Positions 15,630-51,097 of a DNA stretch of 64,000 nucleotides are shown one piece after another (position 1 is the first letter of the stretch; each line of letters opens with the position of its first letter). A model generated the notes under the pieces. The model saw only the letters and a program-made list of their open reading frames with translations. It was not told the DNA's origin and ran no database searches. Location: the NCBI GenBank assembly GCA_024226335.1, contig JAAELY010000249.1:1-64000 (forward strand), read 5' to 3'. Source of the DNA: a bacterium (lineage in GTDB: Bacteria; Myxococcota_A; UBA9160; SZUA-336). A program made the position numbers and the translations under genes.

Positions 15630-17264
15630 TCAAGTCGGCTTCGAACTACTCCCTGTGCCGGTTTCTCGGTGCAAGCCCAGGCGTTTGGCCAATTGATGCA
15701 AATTGCTCCGTTGCATGCCCAGCGTTCGTGCGGCCGCAGCCCAGTTCCCCTCGCAGTGCTCGACGGCCGACCGGATCACCTCGCGCTGGAAGTCTTCCAC
15801 GGCTTTGCGCAGCGACCGCTCTCCGAGCTGGGAGAACTCGAAAGGCCGTTCCGGGGGCGCACTGCTTCCGGCGCTACGCTCGCTGGCCCCGGTCTCTTGA
15901 AAACCCGGCGCGAGTAGAGCTCCCGGCTCGATGTTCCCGGCCTGGATGATGACGGAATCGCCGCGCGGGATGTGCGCGGAAGCGTGGAGTACCGCGCGCG
16001 TGATGGAGTTCTGGAGTTCGCGAACATTGCCCGGCCAGCCCAAGGAGGTCAGGCGATCGACTGCCGCGGGTTCCAGACGCACCGGCCCCAGTCCGAGTCT
16101 TCGACGGTCTTCGTCGCAGAAGGCACCGGCCAGCGCGGGGATGTCTTCGCGTCGTTGACGCAAGGGAGGCACTTCGATGCGATACACGTTCAAGCGGTGG
16201 AAGAGATCGGCCCGAAAACGACCGGCTTCGACTTCGACGGCCAGATCGCGATTGGTGGCGGCGACGATTCTCACGTCTACGTGCAAGCTGCGATCACTGC
16301 CCACACGCTGGATCTCGCCTTCCTGCAGCGCGCGCAAGAGCTTGGGCTGTAGGCCGAGGGGAAGCTCTCCGATCTCGTCCAGGAACAGCGTTCCTCCGTC
16401 GGCGACTTCGAATTTTCCGGCGCGCGTGCCTTCGGCACCTGTAAAGGCGCCGCGTACGTGACCGAAGAGTTCGCTCTCGGCCACCGTCTCCGGCAAGGCT
16501 GCGCAGTTCACGTAGATAAGCGGTTCTTCCGCACGAGTCGATCCAGCGTGTAGCGAACGCGCGACCAGTTCCTTGCCCACACCGGTTTCGCCTGCGATCA
16601 AGACCGTGAAGTCGGAGCGCGCCACCAGGGCGATCTCCTCGCGCAGGTGGGTCATCACCGGGCTGCTTCCGATCAGCAAACCGCCGCGCCTCTGGTGTGC
16701 TTCGCGCAGGAGATCGTGGGCCACCAGGCCGTGTCGGGCGGCCGTGTGTTCCAGGGTTTCGATCAGGTTGCTGGTGCGCATGGCGGCACCGGCCAACGCT
16801 CCCAACGCCGCGAGAAAACTCGGGTCGAAACGATCGAAGGCGTTGGCCTCCAGCGCGTCGATGCTGAGCACGCCGATGAGTTCGCCCTCGGCCCAGAGCG
16901 GACAGCCCAGGCAGGCGTGGATTTCGTTGAGTGCGTGCGGGTCACTCTCCAGCAGTCCGTCGAACGGATCGGGCAGGGGGCTGTCTGGCGGAAAGAGTCG
17001 CGGCGCCAACTCCTTGCAGATGATGTCGAGGCGCGGGTGATCCCGGCGCCGGAAACGTCGGCCCATAGCATCGGGAACCAGGCCGTGGGCCTCCAGCGGG
17101 ATCAGTTCCTCACCGTCGAGGCGCATCAGCACGGCGGCATCGCAGGGCAGGACGCGGCGGATCGAAGCGACCAGGCGCCGGTAGCGGTCCTCGGCAGTCA
17201 GAGACGCATTCAAATCGAGGGCAATCGAGAGGAGTAGATCGAAAGGAGCTGTTGTCTGATTCAT
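15630..17264 (-). CDS. norR: NorR-type sigma-54-dependent activator (nitric oxide sensor)
   Basis: A 544-residue enhancer-binding protein with the NorR layout: an N-terminal GAF domain (about 15-170) that would hold the NO-sensing non-haem iron, a central AAA+ domain (about 195-430) with Walker A GETGVGKE at 225-232 and the sigma-54 contact loop GAFTGA at 272-277, and a C-terminal Fis-type helix-turn-helix ending in [20 protein letters not shown]. It is divergent from a quinol NO reductase gene whose promoter has a perfect -24/-12 element. In enterobacteria and Ralstonia, NorR activates NO detoxification genes in just this arrangement. Confidence 0.9.
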
Positions 17265-17275: not shown

Positions 17276-17349
17276 AATATAGCAACGTTTCAGAAGTTAT
17301 CAAAACAACAACGATTTCTGTAAGTAGTTGAAATATAAAGGTTTTGATC

Positions 17350-17366
17350 TTGGCCCGAGGATTGCT
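17350..17366 (+). promoter_or_regulatory. Sigma-54 (-24/-12) promoter of norZ
   Basis: TTGGCCCGAGGATTGCT matches the sigma-54 consensus, with GG at 17352-17353 and GC at 17364-17365 exactly 10 bases apart. Transcription would start near 17377, about 48 bases before the norZ ATG. Together with the divergent NorR gene this predicts NO-inducible expression. Confidence 0.8.
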
Positions 17367-17424: not shown

Positions 17425-19776
17425 ATGAAGACGGATCGACGACTCTGGATCGCCCTGGTCCTGGTGCTGATCGGCACCTTTTCAATCCTGGGTTTCTACG
17501 GGCGCGAGATCTACCGCCAGGCGCCCCCCATTCCCGATCGGGTCGTGACCGAATGGGGACGCGTGCTCATGACTCGCGACGACATCCTGACCGGTCAACA
17601 GGTCTGGCAGAGCATCGGCGGTCAGCAGGTCGGTTCCATCTGGGGACACGGCGCCTACCAGGCTCCCGACTGGTCGGCGGATTGGCTTCACCGCGAAGCG
17701 ACGAAGCTGCTGCAGATCTGGAGCGCGCGCGATCACTTCATTGCGTTGTCCGAATTGTCTGCGCAGGATCGCGCCGCACTCGAGGCTCGCCTGCGCAGCG
17801 AGATGCGCAGCAATACCTACGACACTGAAACCGGAAGCGTCGTCGTGAGTGAGGATCGCGCGGCTGCGATGGCCGACACCGGTCTTCACTACAGCTCGTT
17901 GTTCGGTGGCGACCCGGCGCTGCGCGATCTGCGAGACGACTACGCGATGCTCGAGACCAGCGTGGTCGACTCGGAAAAGCTGCGCCAGCTCAACGCGTTC
18001 TTCTTCTGGACCTCGTGGGCCTGTACGACTGAACGACCCGGCCTCGAAACCACCTATACCAATAACTGGCCTCACGAACCGCTGGTGGGGAATCGACCTT
18101 CCAGTGCCAACATCTTGTGGTCGTTGCTCAGCATCGCCGCCTTGCTGGCAGGCGCAGGCGGACTGGTCGCCTACCATGCGGCGCGTAGACACGACGAGAG
18201 CAGTGAAGAACGCGCACCACTCGAAGACCCCCTGGAGGGCCTCGAGCTCACACCGTCCATGCGCGCCACGGCCAAGTACTGCGGTCTGGTGATCCTGCTC
18301 TTCGTCGTGCAGGTTCTCCTGGGTGCGCTGACGGCTCACTACACGGTCGAAGGTCGAGAGTTCTTCGGTCTGCCTCTGGGCGAAATTCTGCCGTACTCCG
18401 TTACGCGGACCTGGCACCTACAGACGGCTCTGTTCTGGATTGCTACTGCGTTTCTGACGGCCGGGCTGTTTCTGGCGCCAGCGATCGGGGGACGGGAGCC
18501 GCGCCATCAACGCCTGGGCGTGAACGTGCTCTTCGGTGCGTTGTTAGTGGTCGTCGGTGGTTCGATGGCGGGGGAATGGCTCGCGGTACAGCAGTGGCTC
18601 GACCTCGATCTGAGCTTCTGGTTCGGGCATCAAGGCTATGAGTACGTCGAACTGGGTCGCGTATGGCAGATCGGCCTTTTCGTCGGACTGATGCTCTGGC
18701 TGGTATTGATGTTGCGTGCACTCTGGCCAGCGCTCGTCCGCCAGACGGAGCACCGACAGATCACTCTTCTGTTCGCGGGTTCGGCCGCCGCCATCGGACT
18801 CTTCTACGGTGCGGGTTTCTTCTACGGTGCGCGCACACATCTGACCGTGATGGAGTACTGGCGTTGGTGGGTAGTCCATCTCTGGGTCGAAGGTTTCATG
18901 GAAGTCTTTGCCACGGCAGCCATAGCCATCCTGTTTTCCAGGCTGGGTTTGATCGGAGCTCGCAGTGCCGCACGCGCCGTGTTGTTTTCGACTAGCATCT
19001 TCCTCGTGGGTGGTATCCCCGGAACTTTCCATCACCTGTACTTCAGCGGCACGCCCATCACCATCATGGCCATCGGCGCCTGTTTCAGCGCTCTCGAGGT
19101 GGTTCCCCTGGTGATGGTGGGTTTTGAGGCATTGGAAACCCTGCGCTCGCAAGAGCGCGCGAGTTGGATGGAGCGCTATCGCTGGCCCATCCGTTTCTTC
19201 GTGGGCGTCAGTTTCTGGAATCTGATCGGTGCCGGGGTGTTCGGCTTCCTGATCAATCCGCCGATCGCGCTCTACTACATGCAGGGACTCAACACCACAC
19301 CAGTTCACGCACATACCGCCCTTTTCGGCGTCTATGGCCTGCTCGCCCTGGGGCTGGTACTGGTCGTGCTGCGCCGCCTGATGCCCGTAGGTGAGTGGCG
19401 CGAGGGACCTCTGGCCTTCGCCTTCTGGAGCATGAACATCGGACTCGGGCTGATGGTGTGCCTGAGTCTGCTGCCGATCGGATTGATTCAGACATACGCT
19501 TCGATCGAAACCGGTCTGTGGTTCGCGCGCAGCGCGGAATTCATGCAGCAACCATTCATCCAGAACCTGCGCTGGATGCGCATGCTGGGCGACACGGTCT
19601 TCCTGGCCGGTGTAGGTAGTCTGGCGTGGTTCGTTCTGGGGTTGCGCACGGGCTGGTCCTATCAGCCGGGCTCCCGCCAGGTGCAGACGAAACCCGAGAA
19701 CCGGGCCGGCATCTCAGCTGAACCGATCTGGGTATACTCGGGCGTACAACCGGCCCGCGTTCAACCCTCTAAATGA
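17425..19776 (+). CDS. norZ: Quinol-dependent nitric oxide reductase (qNOR)
   Basis: A 783-residue integral membrane enzyme that reduces two NO to N2O with electrons from quinol. ATG 17425 is preceded by TTGGAG. An N-terminal span leads into a periplasmic, NorC-like domain with GQQVWQSIGGQQ, GSIWGHGAYQAPDWSADWLH and other qNOR signatures, followed by about a dozen spans. Catalytic-core motifs include TRTWHLQTALFWIA, HLWVEGFMEVFA, GTFHHLYFSG and HAHTALFGVYG, which carry the haem and non-haem iron histidines and conserved glutamates. The length is slightly above the usual 750-760 because of a polar C-terminal tail. The next gene starts 22 bases downstream. Confidence 0.93.
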   Translation: MKTDRRLWIALVLVLIGTFSILGFYGREIYRQAPPIPDRVVTEWGRVLMTRDDILTGQQVWQSIGGQQVGSIWGHGAYQAPDWSADWLHREATKLLQIWSARDHFIALSELSAQDRAALEARLRSEMRSNTYDTETGSVVVSEDRAAAMADTGLHYSSLFGGDPALRDLRDDYAMLETSVVDSEKLRQLNAFFFWTSWACTTERPGLETTYTNNWPHEPLVGNRPSSANILWSLLSIAALLAGAGGLVAYHAARRHDESSEERAPLEDPLEGLELTPSMRATAKYCGLVILLFVVQVLLGALTAHYTVEGREFFGLPLGEILPYSVTRTWHLQTALFWIATAFLTAGLFLAPAIGGREPRHQRLGVNVLFGALLVVVGGSMAGEWLAVQQWLDLDLSFWFGHQGYEYVELGRVWQIGLFVGLMLWLVLMLRALWPALVRQTEHRQITLLFAGSAAAIGLFYGAGFFYGARTHLTVMEYWRWWVVHLWVEGFMEVFATAAIAILFSRLGLIGARSAARAVLFSTSIFLVGGIPGTFHHLYFSGTPITIMAIGACFSALEVVPLVMVGFEALETLRSQERASWMERYRWPIRFFVGVSFWNLIGAGVFGFLINPPIALYYMQGLNTTPVHAHTALFGVYGLLALGLVLVVLRRLMPVGEWREGPLAFAFWSMNIGLGLMVCLSLLPIGLIQTYASIETGLWFARSAEFMQQPFIQNLRWMRMLGDTVFLAGVGSLAWFVLGLRTGWSYQPGSRQVQTKPENRAGISAEPIWVYSGVQPARVQPSK

Positions 19777-19798
19777 CCGTGCGGAGAGAGTCGCAGTT

Positions 19799-22700
19799 TT
19801 GCACCAACCCATCGCCAAGAAGACGGCCTCGTCCTCCGCCAGCGAAGGAAGCGGGGCGGCGACCTGGCAGCGCGGAATCTGCGGCATCTGTCCGGCGGGG
19901 TGCTGGGTAGAGTTGGCTCTAGAAAAGGGTCGGATCGTCGATATTCGCCCCGATGAGAGCAGTCCCCTCGGCATGATCTGTCGACGGGGCGAACACGCCT
20001 CCGAGATTGTCTACTCGGAGCACCGACTCCAGTACCCCCAGGTGCGCAGCGGATCCGGACCGGGAGCGCCTTTGGAGAGGACCAGCTGGGATCACGCCTA
20101 CGAGGTGATCGCCGAGAATCTCGAGCGCATCAAACGAGAATCGGGACCGGAAGCCGTCGGAATCTACACGGGGCGCGGCTCCTTCGAACACTCGCTGTGC
20201 GACATGTTTCAGCCCGAAGGGGTCGCCGTCAGTTCCGCTTCCAGTGTGCTTTTTCCGTTCGGATCACCCAATACGATGGGTGTCGGCGCTATCTGTTATG
20301 TCTCGTTTGCGATGATGGCGCCCCATCTGACCATGGGCCGCATGCTGGTCAATACGTTTTCCGACATCGAGAACGCGGAACTGCTCGTGGTCTGGGGGGC
20401 GAATCCGGCCACCGACTCGCCCCCACTCGATATGCGGCGACTCGAAGCGGCCGTCCAGCGCGGAGCCGAAGTCGTCGTCATCGATCCTCGGCGAAGCGAA
20501 ACGGCTCGGCGTTGCGACGCCCAGTGGATCCCCATCCGACCTGGAACCGACGGCGCACTGGCGCTGAGCCTGATCAGCGTGATGATCGACGAAGAACTCC
20601 TCGACGAAGATTTCGCCGAGGACTGGTGTAGCGGCTTCGACGAACTCGAGACTTACGTTCAGCATTTCTCGCCGGAGGTTGCTGCGAGCATCACGAGTGT
20701 GCCCGCCGAGGAGATTCGCAAGCTCGCCCGTCGGATTGCGCAGGCCGGTTCCGCCTGTCCCGTCATGTATTCCGGATTGGAGTATTCCAATAGTGGCTTG
20801 CAGGCGATTCGAGCCGTGCTCACGGTGTTTGCTCTTGCGGGCCATCTAGATGTTCCCGGTGGAATCGGTCTGGCGATGGCGGACACGCATTTCCCCATCA
20901 ATCGCTCGACCAATCTGCCCAATCCCGACTTCGATCGGGCGATCGGTAGCGAGAAGTTCCCGCTCTACAGTCGCTACAGGCAGGAACCGCACGCCAATCA
21001 ACTGATCCGCTCGATACTGGACGAGGAGCCCTACAAGATTCGAGGCTTGATCGTGCACGGGTCGTCGCTGCTGACTTCCTGGCCTCAGACGTCGCTGTGG
21101 CGCGAGGCGTTATCGAAGCTGGATTTCCTGGTCTGCATCGATCGCCAGATGACGGCCGATGCGGCCTACGCGGACGTCGTGCTTCCGGCGGCCACCATGT
21201 TCGAATGCGATTCGTACATGACGTACGGTCCGCTGTTCCGCCTGCGCGAAAAGATCATCGAACCGCTGGGCGAGAGCCGAAGCGACTATCACATCATGGC
21301 CGGACTGGCGGAGAGCCTGGGTTACGGACATCTCTATCCGCAGACCGAGAAGGAGATGATCCGCCATGTCCTGAAAGATTCGGGTTTCACTCTGAAGGAT
21401 GTCCGCGCTGCGGGCGGATCGGTCAAGATCCAGTCTCCGCTCATGGAGTACCGCAAATGGGAGAAGGGCGGTCTGCGGGCGGATGGAAAACCCGGCTTCG
21501 AGACTCCGAGCGGAAAGTTCGAAATCGCCTCCAGCATCCTGGAAGACTACGGTTACGAACCGCTGCCCCGATACACCGAACCCGTGGAAGGGCCACTCGC
21601 TGCGCCCGAACTCGCGAAAGAGTTTCCTCTGGTGTTCAACTCCGGTGCGCGTCCGCAAACCGACTTTCGTTCGCAGCATCACGGGATCAAGGGATTGCTG
21701 GACGACCGTCCCGAACCGACCGTCGATCTTCATCCCGAAGATGCCGGGGATCGCGGCATCGAGGACGGCGATCTCGTCGAGGTGAAGACTCCCCGAGGAG
21801 CGGTTCCGTTTCGCGCCAGGGTGACGGAAGACCTCATCAAGGGCAGCATCGAGGCCAATCAGGGCGGCGGCGGGCCGGTGGGGCCGCGCGCATGGCAGGA
21901 ATGGAACGTCAATGAACTGACGGATCACGCCAATATCGATCCGATCACCGGGTTCCCCGTCTACAAAGCCCTGCTCTGCGACGTGTTGAAGCTCGAGGAT
22001 GGAACGGAGTTGACGCGTCGGCCGGTGACGGCAACGGCTCGGAGCGCGAATGCGGAAACGGTCCGGCGCACCGAGTCGACCCGACGCACCGAGTCGACCC
22101 GCCCGACAGGTCCGACGCGGCGCAGCTATCTCGACAATGCCGCGACGACTCCCGTGGCGGATTTGGTGCGGCAGGCGGTCTTCGAACATCTCGATTGCAC
22201 CGGCGGCAACCCGTCGAGCATTCACGGACTGGGACGCGAAGCGCGCGAAGCCGTGGAGCAAGCTCGTCGGCAGGTGGCCAGACTGCTCAATGCGCGTCCG
22301 CGACGCGTGATCTTCACAGGGGGCGGCTCCGAAGCCAATAACATGGCGATCAAGGGCGTTGCTCTGACCCGACCCCGCGGAAGTCACATCATCACCTCGG
22401 CCGTGGAACATCCCGCCGTTCTTCAGTCCTGCGCGTTTCTGGAAAGATCCGGCTACTCGGTAACCCGGCTCGGCGTCGACGAGTTCGGACGGGTCGATCC
22501 GGCCCAGCTCAGAGATTCGCTTCGCGACGAGACGATTCTGGTATCGATCATGCTCGCGAATAACGAAGTCGGTACTATTCAGCCGATCGCGGAACTCTGC
22601 GCGCTCAGCCGCGCTGCCGGTACGGTGTTTCATTGCGATGCGGTACAGGCCGTAGGCAAGATCGCGGTCGACGTCGAGGATCTCGACGTCGATCTGCTTT

Positions 22701-23272
22701 CGATCAGCGCTCACAAGTTCCACGGTCCGAAGGGAGTCGGCGCGTTGTTCGTTCGCAGGGGAATCGAATTGGAACCCCTGGTTCACGGCGGCAAGCAGGA
22801 GCAACGGCTGCGGGCGGGAACGGAAAACGTTCCGGGAATCGTCGGCATGGGGGAAGCCGCGGCCCTGGCGCACGCCGACTTGAAGCACGCGGAGCGCATG
22901 AGAGGTCTACGCGATCGGCTCGAAGCGGGAATTCGCGATCTGGTTCCCGAAGCCGAACTCAATGGCCATCCCAGCTTCCGCGTTCCCGGCATCCTGAACC
23001 TGACTCTACCGGGCCTTCGCGGTGAATCGGTCGTGGTTGCGATGGACCAGCACGGCATATCCCTCTCTTCCGGTTCGGCCTGCAAGTCCGGCTCTCCGGA
23101 TCCCACACACGTGCTCATCGCCATGGGCAAATCGGAAGCCGATGCCCATTGTTCGGTGAGACTGTCGCTTTCCCACGCCACGACCGATCGAGACATCGAC
23201 GATACGATCGCAGCTCTGGGCCAGGTTCTCGAAGAGATGGCCAATACGGTACGCTTCCTGCCCTGCAAATAG
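19799..23272 (+). CDS. Fusion: molybdopterin oxidoreductase (N) and NifS/IscS-type cysteine desulfurase (C)
   Basis: One uninterrupted 1157-residue frame. Residues 1 to about 740 form a Mo/W-bis-PGD oxidoreductase: a [4Fe-4S] site from Cys28, 31, 35 and 61, a probable metal-ligand Cys166 in GAICYVS, VVWGANPATDSPP, and the C-terminal molydopterin-binding domain with ANQGGGGPVGPRAW. A basic Arg/Thr/Ser linker (about 745-774) containing a tandem RRTEST repeat leads into a complete cysteine desulfurase starting YLDNAATTP at 777, with NNEVGTIQPI, PLP-lysine Lys973 in SAHKFHGPKG, RAGTENV and the persulfide Cys1095 in SGSACKSG. The start is TTG 19799 after GGAGAGAG. It is 22 bases after norZ and probably NorR-controlled. 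Cysteine desulfurase supplies sulfur to sulfurate Mo cofactors in formate dehydrogenase via FdhD, so self-sulfuration of the Mo centre is a possible role. The substrate is unknown. Confidence 0.88.
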   Translation: MHQPIAKKTASSSASEGSGAATWQRGICGICPAGCWVELALEKGRIVDIRPDESSPLGMICRRGEHASEIVYSEHRLQYPQVRSGSGPGAPLERTSWDHAYEVIAENLERIKRESGPEAVGIYTGRGSFEHSLCDMFQPEGVAVSSASSVLFPFGSPNTMGVGAICYVSFAMMAPHLTMGRMLVNTFSDIENAELLVVWGANPATDSPPLDMRRLEAAVQRGAEVVVIDPRRSETARRCDAQWIPIRPGTDGALALSLISVMIDEELLDEDFAEDWCSGFDELETYVQHFSPEVAASITSVPAEEIRKLARRIAQAGSACPVMYSGLEYSNSGLQAIRAVLTVFALAGHLDVPGGIGLAMADTHFPINRSTNLPNPDFDRAIGSEKFPLYSRYRQEPHANQLIRSILDEEPYKIRGLIVHGSSLLTSWPQTSLWREALSKLDFLVCIDRQMTADAAYADVVLPAATMFECDSYMTYGPLFRLREKIIEPLGESRSDYHIMAGLAESLGYGHLYPQTEKEMIRHVLKDSGFTLKDVRAAGGSVKIQSPLMEYRKWEKGGLRADGKPGFETPSGKFEIASSILEDYGYEPLPRYTEPVEGPLAAPELAKEFPLVFNSGARPQTDFRSQHHGIKGLLDDRPEPTVDLHPEDAGDRGIEDGDLVEVKTPRGAVPFRARVTEDLIKGSIEANQGGGGPVGPRAWQEWNVNELTDHANIDPITGFPVYKALLCDVLKLEDGTELTRRPVTATARSANAETVRRTESTRRTESTRPTGPTRRSYLDNAATTPVADLVRQAVFEHLDCTGGNPSSIHGLGREAREAVEQARRQVARLLNARPRRVIFTGGGSEANNMAIKGVALTRPRGSHIITSAVEHPAVLQSCAFLERSGYSVTRLGVDEFGRVDPAQLRDSLRDETILVSIMLANNEVGTIQPIAELCALSRAAGTVFHCDAVQAVGKIAVDVEDLDVDLLSISAHKFHGPKGVGALFVRRGIELEPLVHGGKQEQRLRAGTENVPGIVGMGEAAALAHADLKHAERMRGLRDRLEAGIRDLVPEAELNGHPSFRVPGILNLTLPGLRGESVVVAMDQHGISLSSGSACKSGSPDPTHVLIAMGKSEADAHCSVRLSLSHATTDRDIDDTIAALGQVLEEMANTVRFLPCK
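22064..22099 (+). repeat. Two-copy 18-base tandem repeat in the fusion linker
   Basis: CGGCGCACCGAGTCGACC is followed directly by CGACGCACCGAGTCGACC, one mismatch. It encodes the RRTEST repeat in the interdomain linker and marks slippage-driven growth of the linker. Confidence 0.8.
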
Positions 23273-23281
23273 GGAAGTACT

Positions 23282-24799
23282 GTGAGCAAGCCCGCGCGAA
23301 GACCCTTCCGGACTTCATTCCTCTGTCTGATGATCGCGATTGCGCCCGGCGTTCCGAGCCTTGCGAGCGCATCGTCTGGAAATGAACGGCCTCCCAATGT
23401 ACTGCTGATCGTCGCCGACGATCTCGGCTGGAAGGACGTCGGTTACCACGACAGCGAGATCCGGACGCCGAACATCGATCGCATTGCGAGGCAAGGTCTC
23501 GAACTCGATCGCATGTACGTACAACCCGCTTGCAGTCCGACCCGAGCGGCCCTGATGACAGGCAAGTCGCCTCTGCGCCTCGGCGTGGTGCAACCGATCT
23601 CGAAGCACTCTCCCCACGGTCTTCCAATCGAAGAGACACTACTACCCGAGTACTTCCGCCGCGCGGGTTATCAAACACTCATGTCGGGCAAGTGGCATCT
23701 CGGTCATCACGAGAAGCGCTATCTGCCGCACAATCGCGGTTTCGATCAATACTATGGACACGTAACGGGCGGTATCGGTTACTGGGATCACAATCACGGC
23801 GGGCGTCACGACTGGCAGCGCAACGGCAAGACCGTTCGTGAGCAGGGTTATTCCACGACCCTCATCACCGATGAAGGCGTGCGCTTGCTCGAGCAGCGCG
23901 ACCGGACGAAGCCGATATTCCTGTACGTCGCCTACAACGCACCGCATCTGCCAAACGAAGCTCCGGATGAAACGGTCGCAGAGTACTCCGAGATCGAAGA
24001 TCCACTCCGGCGCATTCACGCCGCAATGGTCGATGAACTCGATACCTCGATCGGTCGCCTGCTATCTGCACTCGATGCCGAAGGCCTGCGCGAGAACACC
24101 ATCATCTGGTTCGTGAGCGACAACGGGGGCCTCAATATCCACGCAAGCCCGGAGCCCATGGTCAATCTGGTCGCAAATCTGGTTTCAATATTCGGCCGGC
24201 CGCTTCCGGGATCGCTCGAGTTCCTGAGGCATAACATCCAGGATGGGGCGAGTGACAACGCGCCATTGCGCGGCGGAAAGATGTCGATTTTCGAGGGCGG
24301 CACCCGGGTTCCCGGCGCCATCTGGTGGCCCGGCCATCTCGAAGGTGGAAGTAGCGCGGCCTTCGTCAGCGCTTCCGACATTCTGCCCACACTGCTCGAT
24401 GCTGCGGGTCTGGCCAATGGGATTCCCGAGGATCTCGACGGTGAGTCGCGCTGGGAAGTCCTTCGGGATCCCACGCAGAGCGAAGAGCATCCCGACTACG
24501 TTGCCACGTCCCCGGCCGGTACGGCTATCTACCGAGGTCCGTGGAAACTCGTCAAACCCAGTAGCCCGATGCCTTTCAGCGATCCGCCCGCCGCGCTCTA
24601 TCGCATCTGGGATGACCCGACAGAAACGAACGACCTCGCAGCCGCTCACCCGGAACAGGTCGAGGAACTCGCCGCTGCACTGGAAGCCTGGCCGCGCGGT
24701 CCGTCGGTGCACGGCTCGATGCTCAAGGTCATCTGGGATCCCGATAGCTTCGGTGGCGAGGAACTGCACGAGCAACCCTGGGCGGAAGCGGCCAAGTAG
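23282..24799 (+). CDS. Exported type I (formylglycine) sulfatase
   Basis: A 505-residue arylsulfatase-family hydrolase. GTG 23282 gives a signal peptide (about residues 1-31) ending ASASSG, so the enzyme is periplasmic or secreted. NVLLIVADDLGW supplies the paired aspartates of the calcium site. Cys84 in ACSPTRAALMTGK is the C-x-P-x-R formylglycine site, and SGKWHLGHH and FVSDNGG complete the active site. Maturation would need a formylglycine-generating enzyme encoded elsewhere. It starts 9 bases after the Mo-desulfurase fusion and could be cotranscribed with it. The natural sulfate ester is unknown. Confidence 0.92.
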   Translation: MSKPARRPFRTSFLCLMIAIAPGVPSLASASSGNERPPNVLLIVADDLGWKDVGYHDSEIRTPNIDRIARQGLELDRMYVQPACSPTRAALMTGKSPLRLGVVQPISKHSPHGLPIEETLLPEYFRRAGYQTLMSGKWHLGHHEKRYLPHNRGFDQYYGHVTGGIGYWDHNHGGRHDWQRNGKTVREQGYSTTLITDEGVRLLEQRDRTKPIFLYVAYNAPHLPNEAPDETVAEYSEIEDPLRRIHAAMVDELDTSIGRLLSALDAEGLRENTIIWFVSDNGGLNIHASPEPMVNLVANLVSIFGRPLPGSLEFLRHNIQDGASDNAPLRGGKMSIFEGGTRVPGAIWWPGHLEGGSSAAFVSASDILPTLLDAAGLANGIPEDLDGESRWEVLRDPTQSEEHPDYVATSPAGTAIYRGPWKLVKPSSPMPFSDPPAALYRIWDDPTETNDLAAAHPEQVEELAAALEAWPRGPSVHGSMLKVIWDPDSFGGEELHEQPWAEAAK

Positions 24800-25393: not shown

Positions 25394-26407
25394 TCAGTCT
25401 GCGAGTGTAGGCACGAGAATCTCGATGTTGGCCTTGGCGCGAAGGTCTGCAAGCCACGTTTCTAGCAACTCGCGATCTCGCGTTCTTTTCAGGTTGCCGC
25501 GCAGCTTCTCTTTGATTTCCCGGAATTCCATCGGGTGGGAGGGGATGAGGTTCTCCACCTTCAGGAGGTGAACGCCGCGGAAAGTCCGAATGGGTTGCGA
25601 CAACCCGGCCTCCGAGAGCGACCAGATCGCCGCATCGAGTTCTTCTTCCAGTTGATTCGGGTGGACGAGACCGAGTAGTCCCCCCTTATCCTTCTCATCT
25701 TTCGAGGCCTCCGAGATCTCAGCCACCAGCGACTCGAATGATTCACCCGCAATGATGCGTGCCCGGGCGTCAGCGAGGCGATCGATAGTTCCCTGCCAGA
25801 CCTCTGGATTGCGTCCCAGCGGAGGTACGCGAATGAAGATGCGACGTACATTGGCCTGGGCGGGCATGACCAGTACAGCGCGGTTCTCGTCGTAGTAGCG
25901 GCGCATGCTCTCGTCATCCACGGCCGGTGCTGCATCCAGCAGTCGCTCCTCGACTTTCGAAGTAAGCTGTCGGCGTCGCAGAGCGGCGCGCACGTCGTCG
26001 CGTGTGAATCCAGAGGCTGTCAGGCGTGCTTCGAAGGCCTTTTCGTTCGGATAGCGTGCGATCACGCCTCGTAGCGCATGCTGCAGTTCGTCGTCGCTCA
26101 CGGCTATACCACGTTGTTCGGCATCCTGGAATTTCAATTCCACATCGATCAGTGTCTTCAGAGACGCGCGTTCGAGTTCTAGCCGCCTGGCGGCATCAAC
26201 GCTGCCGTGAAAACTGGCTCCAGGCATGCGTCGCGAAAGCTCCGCCTGAAGTTCGCGTCCGCGGATCTCGGCGCCGTTTACGCGACAGATGACGGCGTCG
26301 ATTGCGTTGTGTGGTATGGCGTCCGTAGCATGCACAGGGGTTGCGACCGACACCAGCGCACACAACACCAGGCCAGACAGCCGGAGTAGTGGGGAGGTGT
26401 AGCTCAT
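25394..26407 (-). CDS. Periplasmic peptidyl-prolyl isomerase (SurA/PpiC parvulin family)
   Basis: A 337-residue folding factor. ATG 26407 overlaps the stop of the upstream cytochrome gene by four bases (ATGA), which fixes the start. A signal peptide of about 25 residues ends at VHATDA. The chain has a SurA-like N-terminal helical region (NGAEIRGRELQAELSRR), then a parvulin domain at about 185-290 with VRRIFIRVPPL, KDEKDKGGLLG and VHLLKVENL. As the last gene of the cytochrome operon it probably helps fold the outer-membrane barrel or the multihaem proteins in the periplasm. Confidence 0.88.
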   Translation of the reverse strand: MSYTSPLLRLSGLVLCALVSVATPVHATDAIPHNAIDAVICRVNGAEIRGRELQAELSRRMPGASFHGSVDAARRLELERASLKTLIDVELKFQDAEQRGIAVSDDELQHALRGVIARYPNEKAFEARLTASGFTRDDVRAALRRRQLTSKVEERLLDAAPAVDDESMRRYYDENRAVLVMPAQANVRRIFIRVPPLGRNPEVWQGTIDRLADARARIIAGESFESLVAEISEASKDEKDKGGLLGLVHPNQLEEELDAAIWSLSEAGLSQPIRTFRGVHLLKVENLIPSHPMEFREIKEKLRGNLKRTRDRELLETWLADLRAKANIEILVPTLAD

Positions 26408-28125
26408 GGACCGTAGGACTCCGGGCTGTGGTCCTCGCCGTGGCACTGCAAGTAGCACTGCCCCGCGTTGTCTCCCAGGTCTTCGAATTCAAGGCGGCCC
26501 GTATTCGGATCTGCAGACACAATCGACAGATCGAAGTTGATCAAGTGAGAGTTGTTGGACGGAGTTCCGTCGCTCACACCATGGGGATCGTGGCAGGCAC
26601 TGCACGGCGCGTCCTCTTCTTCAAAGTGCTTCTTGTGTTTATCGAAACTGATGTCTGAGCGTAGACTCGATTCGCTATGGCATTTGAAGCACAGGTCATA
26701 CAAGCTGGGGTCGTAGGGCACCCCGTCAATCGTATTGTACTGTCGCTCTAGGATGTGCTCGAAAACCGATCCATGTGGACCCGCGGGTCCACTGCCTCCG
26801 GCACCGGGTCCGCGATCGCTCGCATGGCAATCACTGCAGTAGATCAGACTCGTCTCGGTATACGGCGACAAGAGACTCGGCACGTTCGGATTCTTGCCCA
26901 TGCCCTCGACCGGGTGATACGAAGCGTTGCTAAGATCGAACTGCAGGCGCTTGTTCACTTCGAGAAGCTGACGATTGATCGGCGGATCACTCATCGGTGA
27001 GTCACCATGGCATTTGAAACAAACCTCGTATTCGTAGGTTGCAGGTGAGACTGCGGAACCGTTGCGGTCTACACCGCTCGCCCGGCCAAGGGTAGGACTT
27101 GCGAGCGGGGCCGCATGGGCCGCATCTTCGCTCGTGCTATGAGGTTCGTGACAATCGCTGCACTCCACGTGCTCTGAAAGACCAAAGGTCGGGTCCTCAT
27201 TGGGTGTGTGCACGTCAGTCGTCAGTTCCACCGGATGATGGAAGGCGGCGGAGATATCGCTCTGGATATCGGTTGCCGCCAGAGTTCCGTCGTGACACAC
27301 TAGACAGTTGTCTTCCTCTTGAGCGTGGTTGAGGATCCAGGCCGTGCTTCCCGCGGAGTGCGGAGAATGGCAGTTCTGACAGGCATTCTCCGCCAAGGTT
27401 GTGAAGTCTGTGTGCGGCCAGGGATCGGTTCCACTGCCATTCCAGGTCGCGAGCGAGGTGGAATGCGACGAAGGAGCCCAGTCCGGTTTTTCGTGGCACT
27501 CGAGACACAGTTTCGAACCGATCATTGGCGCGACCAGGAAATTTCCAAAACCTTCGTTATGTGGATCGTGGCATGAAGTGCACTGGAGCTGTCCCCGAGG
27601 GTCCACCGTCACACTGCCCATCAATTCACTTGGGTCGACCAGATCCGCCCGCTGCGCCGCCAACGCGGAGTCGTAGTCAAATGAGATGGGATGGTCGTCG
27701 CGAAGATCGCTGTCTACAAGACTGCCGCCGGACGGCATGAAACGCACTCCGCCAACGAAACCGATTTCCTCGGGTTGACTGACCAGGTTTCCCAGAGCGA
27801 CCGTGCCGTCGTGGCAGGACAGGCAGAGCTTGCTCGCTCCCGTTGGCTGGTCGACCGTCGCCAGTAGTGTCGCGCTCTGGTAGGGAAGATACGTCTCCGT
27901 GGAATCCTGACGGTTCCACAACATCGAGGATGAGCGTGAACTGTGGTGGGGTGTATGGCAGAAAATGCACAGGCGCCCCTCCGACTCGGCCTGGATCGGA
28001 CCGGGACCGGTGGTCGACAGGTTGTGTTTCGTCGCAGTGATTCCGGCCCGTCCCGAAAGCGAAACGAGTAATGCCAGTGCGAGCACCGACACACCGAGCA
28101 TCCATCTACTGGCCGAGGTATTCAA
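26404..28125 (-). CDS. Dodecahaem c-type cytochrome, three tetrahaem modules
   Basis: A 573-residue exported cytochrome with 11 CXXCH motifs and a last CX3CH (CYLQCH). In order they are CIFCH, CLSCH, CTSCH, CLECH, CQNCH, CLVCH, CSDCH, CFKCH, CSDCH, CFKCH, CSACH and CYLQCH. The pattern CxxCHxPH, CLxCHDG, HPIS or HPVE, CxxCHxPH, then LCxxCH recurs about three times, and its first copy closely resembles the two small tetrahaem genes of this locus. TTG 28125 gives a signal peptide with an arginine before the hydrophobic core (SRWMLGVSVLALALL); ATG 28101 is the alternative. Either start overlaps the stop of the upstream propeller gene. It probably carries electrons through the periplasm or at the cell surface. 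Confidence 0.88.
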   Translation of the reverse strand: MNTSASRWMLGVSVLALALLVSLSGRAGITATKHNLSTTGPGPIQAESEGRLCIFCHTPHHSSRSSSMLWNRQDSTETYLPYQSATLLATVDQPTGASKLCLSCHDGTVALGNLVSQPEEIGFVGGVRFMPSGGSLVDSDLRDDHPISFDYDSALAAQRADLVDPSELMGSVTVDPRGQLQCTSCHDPHNEGFGNFLVAPMIGSKLCLECHEKPDWAPSSHSTSLATWNGSGTDPWPHTDFTTLAENACQNCHSPHSAGSTAWILNHAQEEDNCLVCHDGTLAATDIQSDISAAFHHPVELTTDVHTPNEDPTFGLSEHVECSDCHEPHSTSEDAAHAAPLASPTLGRASGVDRNGSAVSPATYEYEVCFKCHGDSPMSDPPINRQLLEVNKRLQFDLSNASYHPVEGMGKNPNVPSLLSPYTETSLIYCSDCHASDRGPGAGGSGPAGPHGSVFEHILERQYNTIDGVPYDPSLYDLCFKCHSESSLRSDISFDKHKKHFEEEDAPCSACHDPHGVSDGTPSNNSHLINFDLSIVSADPNTGRLEFEDLGDNAGQCYLQCHGEDHSPESYGP

Positions 28126-29155
28126 AGACTTGTACCCGTCGGTTGTACGCGTCGGCGACGTAGATGCGATTACCGTTGGAAACGCAAAGACCGGCCGGAA
28201 GCCAGAATTGCCCTGGGCCAGCGCCCGAAGCACCGAAGCCCAATAGCACAGGGCCGGTTCGGTCGAAGATCTGCACGTTGTCGAACAAGGAATCCACGAC
28301 GTAGACGTGACCGTCCCGATCGACTGCGACACCTTTGGGCTTGGAGAAGCTCCCGGGCGTATCCCCGAGTTCGCCGAGCACAGTGAGTGGCTGTCCTTCT
28401 GGAGAAAGAATCTGCACGCGGAAGTTCAGCGTATCGGTCACGAGCAGACGGCTTTTCGAATCGATTGCCAGGTGCGTGGGGAAATTGAACTCACCAGGCT
28501 GGCTGCCACGGCCACCGAATGATGTGACCACCTTTCCTTCGGTGTCCAGGGCAACGAGCAGGTGCCTCGCCGTATCTACGACCCAAAGTATTTGGTTATG
28601 GACGTCGAACGCAATTCCGGTCGGACGCACGAGCGCGCCGTCGGCGGTCCAGTCCCCCAGAGTTTCTCCGTTGCGGTCGTAGCGACGGATCCGCGCCCGC
28701 GCCGAGTCGGTCACGTAGGCGACGCCGTCGGCATCATGAGTGACGGCGATCGGTGAGATGAGACGATCTGACTCTTCCGTATTCAACGCGCGATAGCGCT
28801 GCCGTGCCGTATCGAAAATGTGCACCAGGCCCGCACCCGGGTCGGCAACCCACAACCGCCCGCGTCCATCTACTGCCACGCCGTGCGGCCGGACCATGCG
28901 AGGTTCGATTGCGCCCGACAACCAGTCCCAGAAGCGGCGCAGTGCACTCGGATGGATGCCCAGGTCGGCGGGCGTGCGGATCTGTGCCGCGAAGCGGATC
29001 CGAGCCGTCTCGGGACCCGAAGGCCAGACAATCTCGGGCACACCGACCGCGGGTTCGCGCTCGGCCGACGGCGTCGCGCAGCCAAACAGAAATCCCGCGC
29101 ACAAAGGCGCGATGACTCTCGACAAAAAGTGCCCGCGAAGCAATGCCCCGGCCAT
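28106..29155 (-). CDS. NHL-repeat beta-propeller lipoprotein (first copy)
   Basis: A 349-residue protein with a lipoprotein signal ending LFGC (Cys26). After a 65-residue lead, NHL-type blades repeat with the pattern P-x-G-(I/V)-A-V-D-x-x-G-x-(L/V)-x-V-x-D: VRPHGVAVDGRGRLWVAD, RPTGIAFDVHNQILWVVD, FPTHLAIDSKSRLLVTD and KPKGVAVDRDGHVYVVD, consistent with a six-bladed propeller. NHL proteins are frequent in multihaem cytochrome clusters of metal-reducing Deltaproteobacteria, where they are thought to be assembly or scaffold parts. The gene starts 2 bases after the barrel gene and overlaps the dodecahaem gene. A paralogue lies at 31966-33063. Confidence 0.9.
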   Translation of the reverse strand: MAGALLRGHFLSRVIAPLCAGFLFGCATPSAEREPAVGVPEIVWPSGPETARIRFAAQIRTPADLGIHPSALRRFWDWLSGAIEPRMVRPHGVAVDGRGRLWVADPGAGLVHIFDTARQRYRALNTEESDRLISPIAVTHDADGVAYVTDSARARIRRYDRNGETLGDWTADGALVRPTGIAFDVHNQILWVVDTARHLLVALDTEGKVVTSFGGRGSQPGEFNFPTHLAIDSKSRLLVTDTLNFRVQILSPEGQPLTVLGELGDTPGSFSKPKGVAVDRDGHVYVVDSLFDNVQIFDRTGPVLLGFGASGAGPGQFWLPAGLCVSNGNRIYVADAYNRRVQVFEYLGQ

Positions 29156-29157
29156 GG

Positions 29158-31152
29158 TCAGAACGGTCTCGAAACCCGGAAAAGCAGGCGGTTGAATCGA
29201 TCCTTGCTGTCTTGCCTGCTGCCCGAGGTTGCTTGAGTATCGACCTGGAAGTAGCGGTGCTCCAGCGACAGGTGCAATCGTCCATAGCGGTAGGTAAACG
29301 ACAGCGTGGAGCCGATCGTCTCGGTGTCTTCCTCTTCTTGTTCCACCAGTCGGCCAAGCAGGCGCAAGCGAGCAAGGATCCGTCCGGGCAAGACTGTTGT
29401 GATTGTCGCTCCTGCGTGAGTCGTGTCGGTATCGCGATTCACCTCTTCGAGGCTCTCGTGACTGAACGTGCCATAGAGTGAAAATGTCGAGCGCCTTCCC
29501 AGGCGAAAGTTCAGGAACTGGCTCAAGCTGTAGCGATCTCGAGGCGTCAGGCCATGCCGTTCTCGGCGATACTTGAAACGCGTTCGGCTGATACCGTACC
29601 GGAACTCTACAGTTCCGTTCTGCACATCAGAATCATTGAACGAGTTCTGCTCTTCCACACCGGAAATCAACCGCTGGCTGGTTCGTGCATCGGACACTTC
29701 GATGTACAGATGATCCAGTAGGTCGAGGCTGATGCTCGATGTGGTCGTCTGGCCGCTGAATTTTCGAGAACTCAGGGTCTGGAAATCGTAGTCGACCTCG
29801 ATAGTGCTGGCTAACGGCGGAACAGCGGGGTCGAGGTTGCTGCCGGGGATCACACGCAAGCCAGTCTGGCTTCCAACGGGCACGACTTCGTAATCGATGC
29901 CCTCGATAAATGAGAACAGAGTCGTAGGATCGGTTACGACGATCGAATCGACTGCGACAAAGGTCTTGTTGAGGATGATCAGCTGACCGATCAACACGTT
30001 CTGCGTCTCGTCCAGGACTGTGAGACTACCTTCTTCCTGGTCCTCGTCCTGATAGCTCATGTCCGGTGAGAATCGAAGACCCAGGCGTCCCCACGGAATC
30101 TTCTTGTTGTAGTCGAAATCGAGTCTCCCGTAGGCTGACCACACTTGGCCCAGGTCGAAGTCCGAGAACGTGCCGCCCGTGCTGACGGTCGTTCTCAAAG
30201 AGTCGAAGAGTTGGTGTGAGAGCCCCGCCGAAGCGGCGTGGGACGTGGCAGATGTCGAGTTGTCCTGGTAGTTCAGCGTGTAGTTGTAGCGGGAGCTCAG
30301 TTTCGCTCCGTGGGACAGGCGGATCTGTTCAGTCAGGTAGAGTGCCCGACTGTCCACGTCGCTGCTGTTTTCGGTCCAGACCAGATTGCTCGAGAACAGA
30401 CCTTTGTCGAGCGTTCGGTCGTGAGAGGCCTGGAGGGTGTGCCTCCGGCGACTCGCAGACGAGATGCCGGACCGCGTCTCTTGCTCTTCTGCATCGAAGT
30501 TGAAGACACTGCGTGTACGGTCTGTCTCGTTTCGCAGGCTCAAGCGAAACAAATCCCGTTCGCGCTTTGTATTACTCGAAATCCCGCTGGAGTCGATCTC
30601 GTTATGGGTCAAGCTGACCTGGGTGGGCAGCTTGAAATCACCGAGCGCGAACTCGCGGAAGTTCACACTGGTCCCGTAACGAAGCGCATCGACGATTTGT
30701 TGTGGTGCGAGCGGGGTGTCGAGTTCCGAGCGCTCCTTGTCTGCAAAGAGAGTAACTGGATAGGGTTTCTCGGGCAGGAAAGTGCCCGAGAGATTGAAGC
30801 CCAGGTCCATCCGGTCGGTGTCTTGCGAGCTTCCGGCGGGTTCGGTGTCCGAACTCGCCTGCTCGAACTCCAGGCGGAAAATTCCGGAGATATCAGAGAA
30901 GGCGGGATGGTAGACCCAGCCGTCGAAGCCCAGCTTCAATTCTTCGATCATGGACAATCGCTTGTTTTCCGAGCCCGTTCCTTCGTCGATCTCGCGCTTG
31001 TCGTTGTCCCAGCGGACTTCACCCGCGAGTTCACCGGACCACTCCTCGAATTCGAACAATGGCCGGCTCTGCCGTTGCGCCTGGGCGCTGGAAGAAAACA
31101 GCGCGCCAAGCGTGAGCAGGAGGACGAGCGGCAGCGAAAGTCGTCGAGTCAC
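29158..31152 (-). CDS. Outer-membrane beta-barrel protein (porin of a porin-cytochrome conduit)
   Basis: A 664-residue protein with signal peptide (1-25, ending AQAQ) and many amphipathic alternating strands rich in Ser, Thr, Asn and Arg, such as VSLTHNEID, LRTTVSTGGTF, TFSLYGTFSHES and LHLSLEHRYF. The chain ends in RVSRPF, a terminal phenylalanine as required for BAM-dependent insertion. Length and strand density suit a barrel of 20 or more strands, like MtrB/PioB/OmbB, although I see no direct MtrB signature such as an N-terminal CXXC. GTG 31152 overlaps the pentahaem stop (GTGA). The place between two cytochrome genes suggests that it holds a cytochrome wire across the outer membrane. Confidence 0.75.
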   Translation of the reverse strand: MTRRLSLPLVLLLTLGALFSSSAQAQRQSRPLFEFEEWSGELAGEVRWDNDKREIDEGTGSENKRLSMIEELKLGFDGWVYHPAFSDISGIFRLEFEQASSDTEPAGSSQDTDRMDLGFNLSGTFLPEKPYPVTLFADKERSELDTPLAPQQIVDALRYGTSVNFREFALGDFKLPTQVSLTHNEIDSSGISSNTKRERDLFRLSLRNETDRTRSVFNFDAEEQETRSGISSASRRRHTLQASHDRTLDKGLFSSNLVWTENSSDVDSRALYLTEQIRLSHGAKLSSRYNYTLNYQDNSTSATSHAASAGLSHQLFDSLRTTVSTGGTFSDFDLGQVWSAYGRLDFDYNKKIPWGRLGLRFSPDMSYQDEDQEEGSLTVLDETQNVLIGQLIILNKTFVAVDSIVVTDPTTLFSFIEGIDYEVVPVGSQTGLRVIPGSNLDPAVPPLASTIEVDYDFQTLSSRKFSGQTTTSSISLDLLDHLYIEVSDARTSQRLISGVEEQNSFNDSDVQNGTVEFRYGISRTRFKYRRERHGLTPRDRYSLSQFLNFRLGRRSTFSLYGTFSHESLEEVNRDTDTTHAGATITTVLPGRILARLRLLGRLVEQEEEDTETIGSTLSFTYRYGRLHLSLEHRYFQVDTQATSGSRQDSKDRFNRLLFRVSRPF

Positions 31153-31961
31153 TGCACCTTACCCCGGTCTCCGCGTACCTCAGCCTGCACCGTATTGGAG
31201 GTAGCGGGTTGTCTTCTGAGAAAGAAGTGATCCGGTCCGCCGTGTGGGTCATGACAGTGGGTGCACTGCGCCGTGACGCGGAGTGTCGGTGCATCCTCTG
31301 TCCGATCGTCCTCCTTTGTTGGCGGCCATGCGTCATTGGGATCCGATGGCCGATGCTCGGCCGTGAACGCAAGCAGGTCTTCTCGCAGATGGCATTGTCC
31401 ACAGAGTTGGGCAGACGGTTCGGCACGGAGGAGTGCCGGATAAGGCGAGGTATGCGATTGGTGGCAGGCCACGCACCAGCCGCCGGCCACTGGACCGTGG
31501 ATCGACATGCCCTGGTTGCGGGAGTGCGCGGGGGAGTACTCGCTGTGACAGTGGGTGCACAGTTCGTCGACGGGCATGCGCAAACGCCCTCCTTCAGCCA
31601 GGGCGGCCTGTGCCTGTGCGCTCGAGGCGCCGCCGCCACGCGGACCTCTCCAGCCGGAGGAAGCGCCCAGATCGTGACAGCGCGCGCATTCTTCGGCGGC
31701 ATAGGGACCGTGACTAAACTCGCGAAAGGTCTTCGTGCGAGTTCTGGCCTGGAGTTCTTCTTCCTTTTGAGCCTCGATCTCGGACGCAGCGTCGGCAATC
31801 TGTTGCGCACGAGCTTCGGGGCTGACGTAAGGCGGCACGCCATCGAAGAGGAACTCGAGCCATTCGTGTCGATGCGGCGCGCTGCAGCTTACCGTCACCG
31901 CGGACAATACCAGGACGGCCGCCAGCGGCACTACTTCTAGCGTTGCCCTGCCGGTCAGCAT
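31149..31961 (-). CDS. Pentahaem c-type cytochrome
   Basis: A 270-residue exported cytochrome. ATG 31961 gives a signal sequence with core VPLAAVLVLSAVTVSC; the cysteine could be lipidated, but the lipobox is poor (Thr at -3). Next come HEWLEFLFDGVPP and a charged helix (residues 50-80), then five CXXCH motifs: CARCH, CTHCH, CVACH, CGQCH and CTHCH. Motif 4 is followed by a 35-residue loop. The gene overlaps the barrel gene by four bases and starts 5 bases past the second propeller gene stop. Its coupling to the barrel makes it the best candidate for the periplasm-facing plug of the conduit. Confidence 0.88.
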   Translation of the reverse strand: MLTGRATLEVVPLAAVLVLSAVTVSCSAPHRHEWLEFLFDGVPPYVSPEARAQQIADAASEIEAQKEEELQARTRTKTFREFSHGPYAAEECARCHDLGASSGWRGPRGGGASSAQAQAALAEGGRLRMPVDELCTHCHSEYSPAHSRNQGMSIHGPVAGGWCVACHQSHTSPYPALLRAEPSAQLCGQCHLREDLLAFTAEHRPSDPNDAWPPTKEDDRTEDAPTLRVTAQCTHCHDPHGGPDHFFLRRQPATSNTVQAEVRGDRGKVQ

Positions 31962-31965
31962 CCGG

Positions 31966-33063
31966 CTACTCCTCGTCTTCGTCCGGCAACGCGAATTCAT
32001 CGTAGCGCGATGGATCCCTTGGTTCGACGAAACCGTAGACCCCGATCTTGTTGGGACCGTAGTTGTTTGCAACCAGGACCACGTATTTGAGTACGAAACC
32101 CGGATCTACAAAGGACTCGAAGTGCGGTACGAGGTCGGCGCTGACAAAGACGTCTGCCGGTAGGTACATGCTTCCCGGTCCCATGCCTGATCCGCCGAAC
32201 GCGAGCAGTACCTGTGTATTCTCCGTATCCCAGATCTGCACGTTTTCGAAAGCCCCATCGGACACATATAGATGGCCCTCGTTATCGACGGCCGTGCCGC
32301 GTGGGCGCGCGAATGTTCCGGGACCATCCCCCAGAAAGCCGAATTCGTGAACGAACTCGCCGTCGACGTCAAACTCCTGGATGCGGAAGTTGATCGCATC
32401 CGTCACGAACAGATGTCCTCGCTCGTCGATGCTGAGGCTAGTAGGGACGTTGAACTCACCTGTGCGTTCGCCAAATTCTCCGATGGTGCGTTCCCTGGCC
32501 TTGGTCCGACGATCCAGAACTTCGACGCGGTGCTTCATACGATTGACCACGTAGACGAAGTCCTCGTCCACCGCCACGCCGGTTGGACGAAGCTTCTCAG
32601 GGTTTCCGTAAGAACGCACGAAGGCGTCTTCGCGGTCGAATTGGACGACCTGCTTGCGCACCGAGTCTGCAATGAACTTATTGCCCTGTGCATCGATGGC
32701 GATGGCCACGGGCGAGCGGAGCTGGCCTTCGGCCTTTGCGCCCGGAAGCGGGTCGAAGACCTTGTTCTTCAGGTCCAGTCGCAGCACCGTACCCCAACCC
32801 GGATCCGCTACGTAGATCACCCCGTCGAATGCGGCGACGGCGGTTGGCTTGCGCATGCGCCGCGAACTCCCCTGCTCGCCGACCAGGAACCTCATGAACA
32901 TGCTTGGAGCGCCTTCAACGTCATCGGCACCGGCAAACTGCGTCAGAAACTGGATGCGAGGTCGTTGAGGTGGAGCCGGATAGAAAAGTGAGTCCTGGTC
33001 GAAATCCGGGGTGGCGCATCCTGCCAACAGGAACCCGACAACCGCGAGCGCCGTGAACCTCAT
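31966..33063 (-). CDS. NHL-repeat beta-propeller lipoprotein (second copy)
   Basis: A 365-residue lipoprotein with signal ending LLAGC (Cys16). The ATG at 33063 overlaps the nonahaem gene stop (ATGA), fixing the start. The blades read KPTAVAAFDGVIYVAD, SPVAIAIDAQGNKFIAD, RPTGVAVDEDFVYVVN, VPTSLSIDERGHLFVTD and RPRGTAVDNEGHLYVSD, then a last YLPADVFVSAD. It resembles the first propeller protein (28106-29155) in layout, including a C-A-T-P start of the mature chain, so the two are paralogues. The C-terminus is acidic (DEDEE). Confidence 0.9.
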   Translation of the reverse strand: MRFTALAVVGFLLAGCATPDFDQDSLFYPAPPQRPRIQFLTQFAGADDVEGAPSMFMRFLVGEQGSSRRMRKPTAVAAFDGVIYVADPGWGTVLRLDLKNKVFDPLPGAKAEGQLRSPVAIAIDAQGNKFIADSVRKQVVQFDREDAFVRSYGNPEKLRPTGVAVDEDFVYVVNRMKHRVEVLDRRTKARERTIGEFGERTGEFNVPTSLSIDERGHLFVTDAINFRIQEFDVDGEFVHEFGFLGDGPGTFARPRGTAVDNEGHLYVSDGAFENVQIWDTENTQVLLAFGGSGMGPGSMYLPADVFVSADLVPHFESFVDPGFVLKYVVLVANNYGPNKIGVYGFVEPRDPSRYDEFALPDEDEE

Positions 33064-34013: not shown

Positions 34014-34104
34014 GCGAGCGAACCGGAATACCAGCAGTTCTGCTACTCGAACGATGATGGCTCCTCCGCACCAGTATACACGGGTACCATCGAGAGAAGC
34101 GCCG

Positions 34105-34146
34105 AAAACAAAGGACCCGACCCCGGGTAGTTCCGAGGTCGGGTCC
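34105..34146 (-). terminator. Rho-independent terminator after the tetrahaem gene
   Basis: On the minus strand, GGACCCGACC (from 34146) and GGTCGGGTCC (to 34113) form a perfect 10-base stem, with extra pairing in the 14-base loop, followed by TTTGTTTTC. It lies 57 bases past the tetrahaem stop and before the nonahaem start, so the tetrahaem gene can be a separate, more abundant transcript, with read-through into the long operon. Confidence 0.8.
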
Positions 34147-34202
34147 GGTTTCATGTTTCACGCAGATTGAGTCGCCAGCAAGGTGACTCGGTGTCGCCTC
34201 AG

Positions 34203-46120: not shown

Positions 46121-46185
46121 GGCGGTTCTCTCTCTTCATCGAAATCCAGCGTTCGCCTCGTGGACTGGAAAACCCTCACGATCGA

Positions 46186-48086: not shown

Positions 48087-48231
48087 GACAGCTACTCCAC
48101 GAGTTGGTTGATCGCTGCCTCGGCCTACCATAAACGCCGAATCAGCCCATCGGGATTGTACCGCGGTCGGAATTTCTCGGGGTAAAATCTGGAATTTCGG
48201 CCTGTAGAGGATCGGCCAGCCCGACCCAGGC

Positions 48232-49371: not shown

Positions 49372-49433
49372 GTCACTTCTCCTCTCGCGATCCGGTCCGA
49401 ATCCGTGCACCCCGACAAGCGCAACGCGAGTTT

Positions 49434-50303: not shown

Positions 50304-50309
50304 CTGAAC

Positions 50310-50945: not shown

Positions 50946-51097
50946 GAGCAAATCTCCGTCGGCCGGCCGGCCGCGAGCATGATAGCGCGAGCCGAAGGGA
51001 AAAGGGGGAATGCAGGCGCCGTGTGGCGCGCGTTGAAGAACACTGGACTCAGCCATTAGACTCGTCGCCAGCAATCGAGAAGGGAACTGAAACCGAC

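Follow-up and report, generated by a model that had tools for sequence, protein, structure and literature searches.

Gene structure and domain arrangement

One gene in the window (the whole stretch of 64,000 nucleotides analysed here, from contig JAAELY010000249.1 of a bacterium of the SZUA-336 lineage) appeared to join a molybdenum/tungsten (Mo/W) enzyme to a cysteine desulfurase in a single chain, which raised the questions of whether the fusion is real and what such a protein would make. The analysis identified the product, with high confidence, as a metallopterin-dependent ergothioneine synthase (MES), an enzyme which would make the antioxidant ergothioneine without O2.

The reading frame was unbroken over 1157 amino acids, from TTG 19799 to the stop codon (Table 1). 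A ribosome-binding-like stretch, GGAGAGAG, was located at 19783-19790, 8 bases 5' of the TTG, and no better in-frame start was found ahead of Cys28. Pfam searches with the complete protein produced matches to Molybdop_Fe4S4 at residues 22-73, Molybdopterin at residues 76-505 (E 6.5e-42), Molydop_binding at residues 618-724 and Aminotran_5 at residues 777-1134 (E 3e-77). Together with the single open frame, these matches bore out the two-domain architecture proposed in an earlier note made from the letters of this DNA. Cys28, Cys31, Cys35, Cys61, Cys166, Lys973 and Cys1095 were also found at the numbers given there, but its residue list had missed Cys1118 and the penultimate Cys1156 (essential in a homologue).

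The structure model of the protein had a pLDDT of 82.8 and a pTM of 0.76. Fold comparison of the modelled protein showed that the first module matched acetylene hydratase and the second matched IscS/Nfs1. The pLDDT was below 50 at the persulfide loop (residues 1095-1098), in the linker (751-770) and in the C-terminal tail with Cys1156 (1151-1157), as would be expected for moving parts, though this is no proof of mobility.

Table 1. Positions in the window of the MES gene, its domains and key residues, and the neighbouring features.
Feature	Position	Strand	Basis
Probable MES gene: metallopterin module, linker and cysteine desulfurase	19799..23272	+	homologous to MES of PMC9516567
[4Fe-4S] domain, Cys28/31/35/61 (aa 22-73)	19862..20017	+	Pfam PF04879; four Cys invariant in 39 MES
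bis-MGD-binding module, Molybdopterin and Molydop_binding (aa 76-724)	20024..21970	+	Pfam PF00384, PF01568; fold match 2e7z
Cys166, predicted Mo/W ligand (CaMES Cys153, acetylene hydratase Cys141)	20294..20296	+	invariant in 39; aligns with Cys of 2e7z
Variable linker, about aa 741-774	22019..22120	+	18-bp, 2.2-copy repeat at 22063-22101; pLDDT < 50 at aa 751-770
NifS/IscS-type cysteine desulfurase domain (aa 777-1148)	22127..23242	+	Pfam PF00266, TIGR03402
Lys973, PLP Schiff-base lysine (CaMES Lys952)	22715..22717	+	invariant in 39
Cys1095, persulfide-forming cysteine (CaMES Cys1074)	23081..23083	+	invariant in 39; Lys spacing +122 as in CaMES
Cys1156, penultimate residue, second relay cysteine (CaMES Cys1135)	23264..23266	+	invariant in 39; aa 1151-1157 pLDDT < 50
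Quinol-type NO reductase NorB (NorB cytochrome c-like and COX1 domains)	17425..19776	+	Pfam; ends 22 bp before MES
NorR, divergent NO-responsive sigma-54 activator	15630..17264	-	NF003451 676.9 bits, cut-off 476
Sigma-54 (-24/-12)-like promoter TTGGCCCGAGGATTGCT	17350..17366	+	upstream of NorB-MES, between divergent norR and norB
Sulfatase-family protein	23282..24799	+	Pfam PF00884; starts 10 bp after MES

Occurrence and conservation of the fusion

A search of 60 related genomes revealed a second full-length fusion in genome G028 with 58% identity. The earlier note had proposed looking for both domains in one protein elsewhere, and 38 further complete proteins, drawn from many phyla, did carry the same fusion in frame at 55-70% identity to the window protein, so that the homologues are not always separate genes. 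Because of this recurrence, the fusion of a Mo/W enzyme and a cysteine desulfurase, as read from the sequences, is real and no artefact. When one genome per species was scanned, 41 loci had a Mo half 57-72% identical to that of the window protein, and below these the next relatives of the Mo half fell to 33% identity or less and were unfused. Every one of the 41 loci with enough contig and an undisrupted frame ran in frame into the desulfurase; several others run off the contig and three (L040, L064 and L068) have broken frames. The three broken genes come from Calditrichota, Methanomicrobiaceae and Nitrospirae assemblies, and either sequencing error or decay may lie behind the breaks.

The alignment of 39 complete MES proteins, window protein included, showed that Cys28, Cys31, Cys35, Cys61, Cys134, Cys166, Lys973, Cys1095 and Cys1156 were invariant, while Cys1118 was kept in 38. 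The linkers varied from 31 to 83 residues over the stretch compared and also differed in sequence.

Comparison with the described MES

The earlier note knew of no described example of such a fusion. One exists, as MES has been known since 2022, when Beliaeva and Seebeck described CaMES of Caldithrix abyssi together with AbMES, EaMES and hvMES (PMC9516567); the later literature naming MES was sparse and added no further members. Ergothioneine production, the essential residues and intramolecular transfer were shown for the Caldithrix homologue only, a protein of 1136 residues with FeS cysteines Cys14/17/21/48, metal ligand Cys153, Lys952, Cys1074, Cys1097 and Cys1135 (PMC9516567). All nine of these positions (four FeS cysteines, the metal-ligand cysteine, the PLP lysine and three further cysteines) were present in the window protein, as Cys28/31/35/61, Cys166, Lys973, Cys1095, Cys1118 and Cys1156. 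The spacings from the lysine through the three cysteines to the end of the chain (122, 23, 38 and 1) were equal in both proteins. A Calditrichota protein (L130) was taken as CaMES or a close relative and used as its stand-in, because its length of 1136 residues and all nine residue numbers agree with PMC9516567; it was 59% identical to the window protein over the full length.

Overall, the window protein has the two-module order, the catalytic and relay residues, their spacings and the penultimate cysteine of the MES of PMC9516567. It differs from them in its tree clade and in its gene position behind norB and not beside egtD, and its host encodes haem-copper oxidase homologues whereas PMC9516567 describes strict anaerobes. 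In the tree, it fell into a clade of 18 rows (support 100/100) apart from the CaMES-like protein. The window protein is a new MES; it belongs to a second clade, and the NO reductase beside its gene makes for an unusual neighbourhood. From its domains in the order of the family, its key residues, its grouping with MES by sequence and the EgtD encoded by its host, we infer the same activity as that of CaMES.

By analogy with CaMES, the C-terminal PLP domain would strip sulfur from L-cysteine to produce alanine and a persulfide on Cys1095, and Cys1156 in the C-terminal tail would then take over the persulfide sulfur. From Cys1156 the sulfur would move on to the Mo/W bis-MGD centre, which Cys166 holds in the N-terminal module of that chain. 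The resulting metal-sulfido centre, a step proposed by the CaMES authors (PMC9516567), would deliver sulfur to the imidazole C2 of N-alpha-trimethylhistidine to give ergothioneine without O2. The EgtD from another contig of the genome would supply the trimethylhistidine, and the reduced metal would be resulfurated for the next turnover, with sulfur spent in each cycle. For CaMES, production is lost when the equivalent of Lys973, Cys1095, Cys1156 or Cys166 is mutated, and a pair of half-dead variants fails to complement each other, which shows obligatory sulfur transfer within one chain (PMC9516567). The earlier idea that the desulfurase feeds the metal site of its own chain therefore agrees with the intramolecular transfer in CaMES, but this transfer serves the sulfuration of substrate at each turnover and not the maturation or repair of the cofactor (PMC9516567).

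Ergothioneine genes and distribution of MES

MES genes usually lie beside the gene of EgtD, a histidine trimethyltransferase. EgtD adjoined MES or was within a few kb of it in 24 of the 39 aligned loci and, beyond this count, lay directly upstream of MES in genome G128. It was present somewhere in 36 of the 41 MES genomes, absence and incomplete assembly being indistinguishable in the other five, and in all nine MES genomes of a second set. Within the 18-row clade of the window protein, EgtD was often not adjacent to MES; the members L031, L035, L036, L038 and L063 are adjacent to it, and L031, the tree sister of the window protein, has MES-EgtV-EgtU-EgtD in a row.

The window's own genome encodes EgtD on another contig than MES (G000:C545, TIGR03438, 389 bits against a cut-off of 291). 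This EgtD keeps the Glu and Ser that we take to act in the histidine pocket of Mycobacterium smegmatis EgtD. Contig C545 carries an EgtV-EgtU-EgtD-like set without MES, and its transporter appears EgtUV-like from the fused permease-binding-protein architecture and the structural match to EgtUC, with ProX/OpuC-type betaine-binding proteins scoring higher than EgtUC for the binding protein. EgtD was found in 69 of 91 genomes of the class with or without MES; since it is so common, its presence in the window genome is weak and non-discriminating evidence. EgtB was not detected in the own genome, nor was it found beside EgtD in genomes of the same family (L139-L143). A MobA-like protein was found in the own genome below its cut-off.

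Copies of MES were found in Myxococcota, Gemmatimonadota, Actinomycetota, Acidobacteriota, Chloroflexota, Planctomycetota and others. The distribution in the class was patchy (4 of 91 genomes) and MES was missing from all ten further genomes of the family, which suggests that the window lineage acquired it horizontally. In genome G110 (L135:9544-15071), a TonB-dependent receptor gene begins about 30 bp after MES, with PqqU as its best NCBIfam match, well below the cut-off.

Related enzymes and alternative readings

The nearest solved relative of the Mo half was acetylene hydratase (2E7Z), by sequence as well as by fold. The two have in common the fold of the N-terminal module, the FeS site and the cysteine metal ligand, but acetylene hydratase has no fused desulfurase. 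In addition, its Asp13, which we take to be the catalytic Asp beside the FeS cluster, is replaced by Pro32 in the window protein and by Pro, Ser or Ala in all 39 MES, a loss which rules out acetylene hydratase as the identity of the protein. The desulfurase half has the Aminotran_5 fold, PLP lysine and persulfide cysteine of NifS/IscS desulfurases. It differs from these in the tail with the penultimate cysteine, in being dedicated to a fused partner and in its score against NifS TIGR03402 (478 bits, under the equivalog cut-off of 531). EgtB and EanB have the same end product as MES but unrelated folds, EgtB using O2 and iron and EanB rhodanese and polysulfide, unlike MES. Moco sulfurase (ABA3/MOCOS) follows the same general logic, in which a NifS-like domain serves a Mo site (PMC9516567), but it works via a MOSC domain on a cofactor that belongs to a different enzyme and has no catalytic Mo-enzyme module in its chain.

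Counting against the reading as MES are the location of MES and EgtD on different contigs in the own genome, the frequency of EgtD in genomes of the class without MES, the clade separate from that of the CaMES-like protein, and the sulfatase and NO reductase as untypical neighbours of a MES gene. The fused protein could instead sulfurate another heterocycle or imidazole, such as histidine or another betaine, by the same chemistry but to a different product. Its separation from the clade of the CaMES-like protein and the missing linkage to EgtD in its genome would fit such a role, and the sulfuration of heterocycles by other Mo enzymes is a possibility raised in PMC9516567 itself. However, the five same-clade loci named above adjoin EgtD, including the MES-EgtV-EgtU-EgtD row of the sister, and the catalytic residues are identical, which leaves only a slim chance for another substrate.

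The earlier note had drawn an analogy with formate dehydrogenase (Fdh) and the supply of sulfur through FdhD, which leads to a formate-dehydrogenase-like enzyme able to mature or repair its cofactor by means of a built-in sulfurase. The fusion would be logical for the insertion of a sulfido ligand, and TIGR01591 (Fdh-alpha) was the top NCBIfam match of the Mo half, but its 296 bits were far under the Fdh cut-off of 666. The best solved relative was acetylene hydratase and the genomic link goes to EgtD. The residue following the metal-ligand cysteine is His in Fdh, whereas it was Tyr after Cys166 in all 39 MES. Finally, the desulfurase of CaMES is needed for turnover and not for activation only (PMC9516567). 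Score, fold and gene context all speak against a self-sulfurating formate dehydrogenase, which was rejected and is considered highly improbable; the FdhD analogy is not needed. The least probable reading, in which two neighbouring genes were joined by chance or during assembly, could draw on the short tandem repeat at the junction (18 bp, 2.2 copies, 22063-22101), but this repeat is a local feature of the linker, no frameshift of the kind against which the earlier note had warned was found at the domain junction of the window gene, and the 38 other complete proteins with the same fusion and invariant catalytic residues rule it out.

Genomic neighbourhood of MES

The MES gene lies behind an NO reductase gene, a setting beyond those given in PMC9516567. 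For NorB, a start at ATG 17425 was preferred over TTG at 17344. NorB and MES are likely on the same transcript, with the sulfatase gene as a possible third member; nothing emerged when the RNA of the norB-MES gap was folded. The sigma-54-like element was the sole match in the window (0.49 expected) and lies 59 bp upstream of where NorB probably starts; the pattern was picked after reading the stretch, and it is the location that makes the match notable. The norR-norB gap also contains a GT-N7-AC stretch, GTTATCAAAAC, presumably the form expected of NorR sites. No qNorB was found in the flanks of the 41 other MES loci, so a linkage to qNorB as a general trait of MES was rejected and the linkage is specific to the genome or lineage of the window.

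One tentative explanation, plausible enough to state but doubtful, is that MES was drawn into an NO-responsive operon in which NorR and sigma-54 would drive norB-MES and perhaps the sulfatase gene. Ergothioneine would then be produced under nitrosative or low-O2 stress in a facultative respirer, and MES would complement or replace EgtB when O2 is short.

Other features were also identified in the window. Multihaem cytochromes with doubled CXXCH and NHL-repeat proteins at 26404-37096 resemble an extracellular electron transfer set, with a probable outer-membrane barrel at 29158-31152 within the cluster. A corrinoid methyl-transfer set at 43578-51173 comprises a RACo-type reductive activator, two URO-D-like methyltransferases, a B12-binding protein and, by eye, a homocysteine methyltransferase-like protein (49434-50303). 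Beside this set and a threonine synthase-like gene is a histidinol dehydrogenase-family gene (52272-53576), whose product may belong to catabolism, as a HisD-like enzyme, rather than to histidine synthesis.

MES and oxygen

The discoverers described MES as the first Mo/W enzyme forming a C-S bond and as exclusive to anaerobes (PMC9516567). In genome G028 (L028:7731-16235), EgtD, MES, an EgtVU-like ABC transporter and EgtB were found on one contig. The EgtB scored 578 bits against a cut-off of 360, which places O2-dependent and O2-independent synthases side by side. Two further MES genomes had EgtB beside EgtD. Genomes with both MES and EgtB would have been left out by the design of PMC9516567, because that work sought EgtD genomes lacking any known sulfurase. 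In addition, 24 of 42 MES genomes had matches to the haem-copper oxidase superfamily, and the own genome is one of the 24 (G000:C353, E 7e-142); NO reductases probably account for some of the weaker matches, and the genomes are drafts with possible contamination. MES may thus not be confined to strict anaerobes, the aerobic growth of its hosts being a suggestion only.

If the MES of the window does belong to an NO-responsive operon, the EgtD-MES-transporter-EgtB cluster of G028 would represent the same idea, a two-enzyme set for aerobic and anaerobic conditions. The oxidase homologues in more than half of the MES genomes make the exclusivity of MES to anaerobes directly testable, and the norB linkage together with the EgtB-MES cluster offers a route to when cells use O2-independent ergothioneine synthesis.
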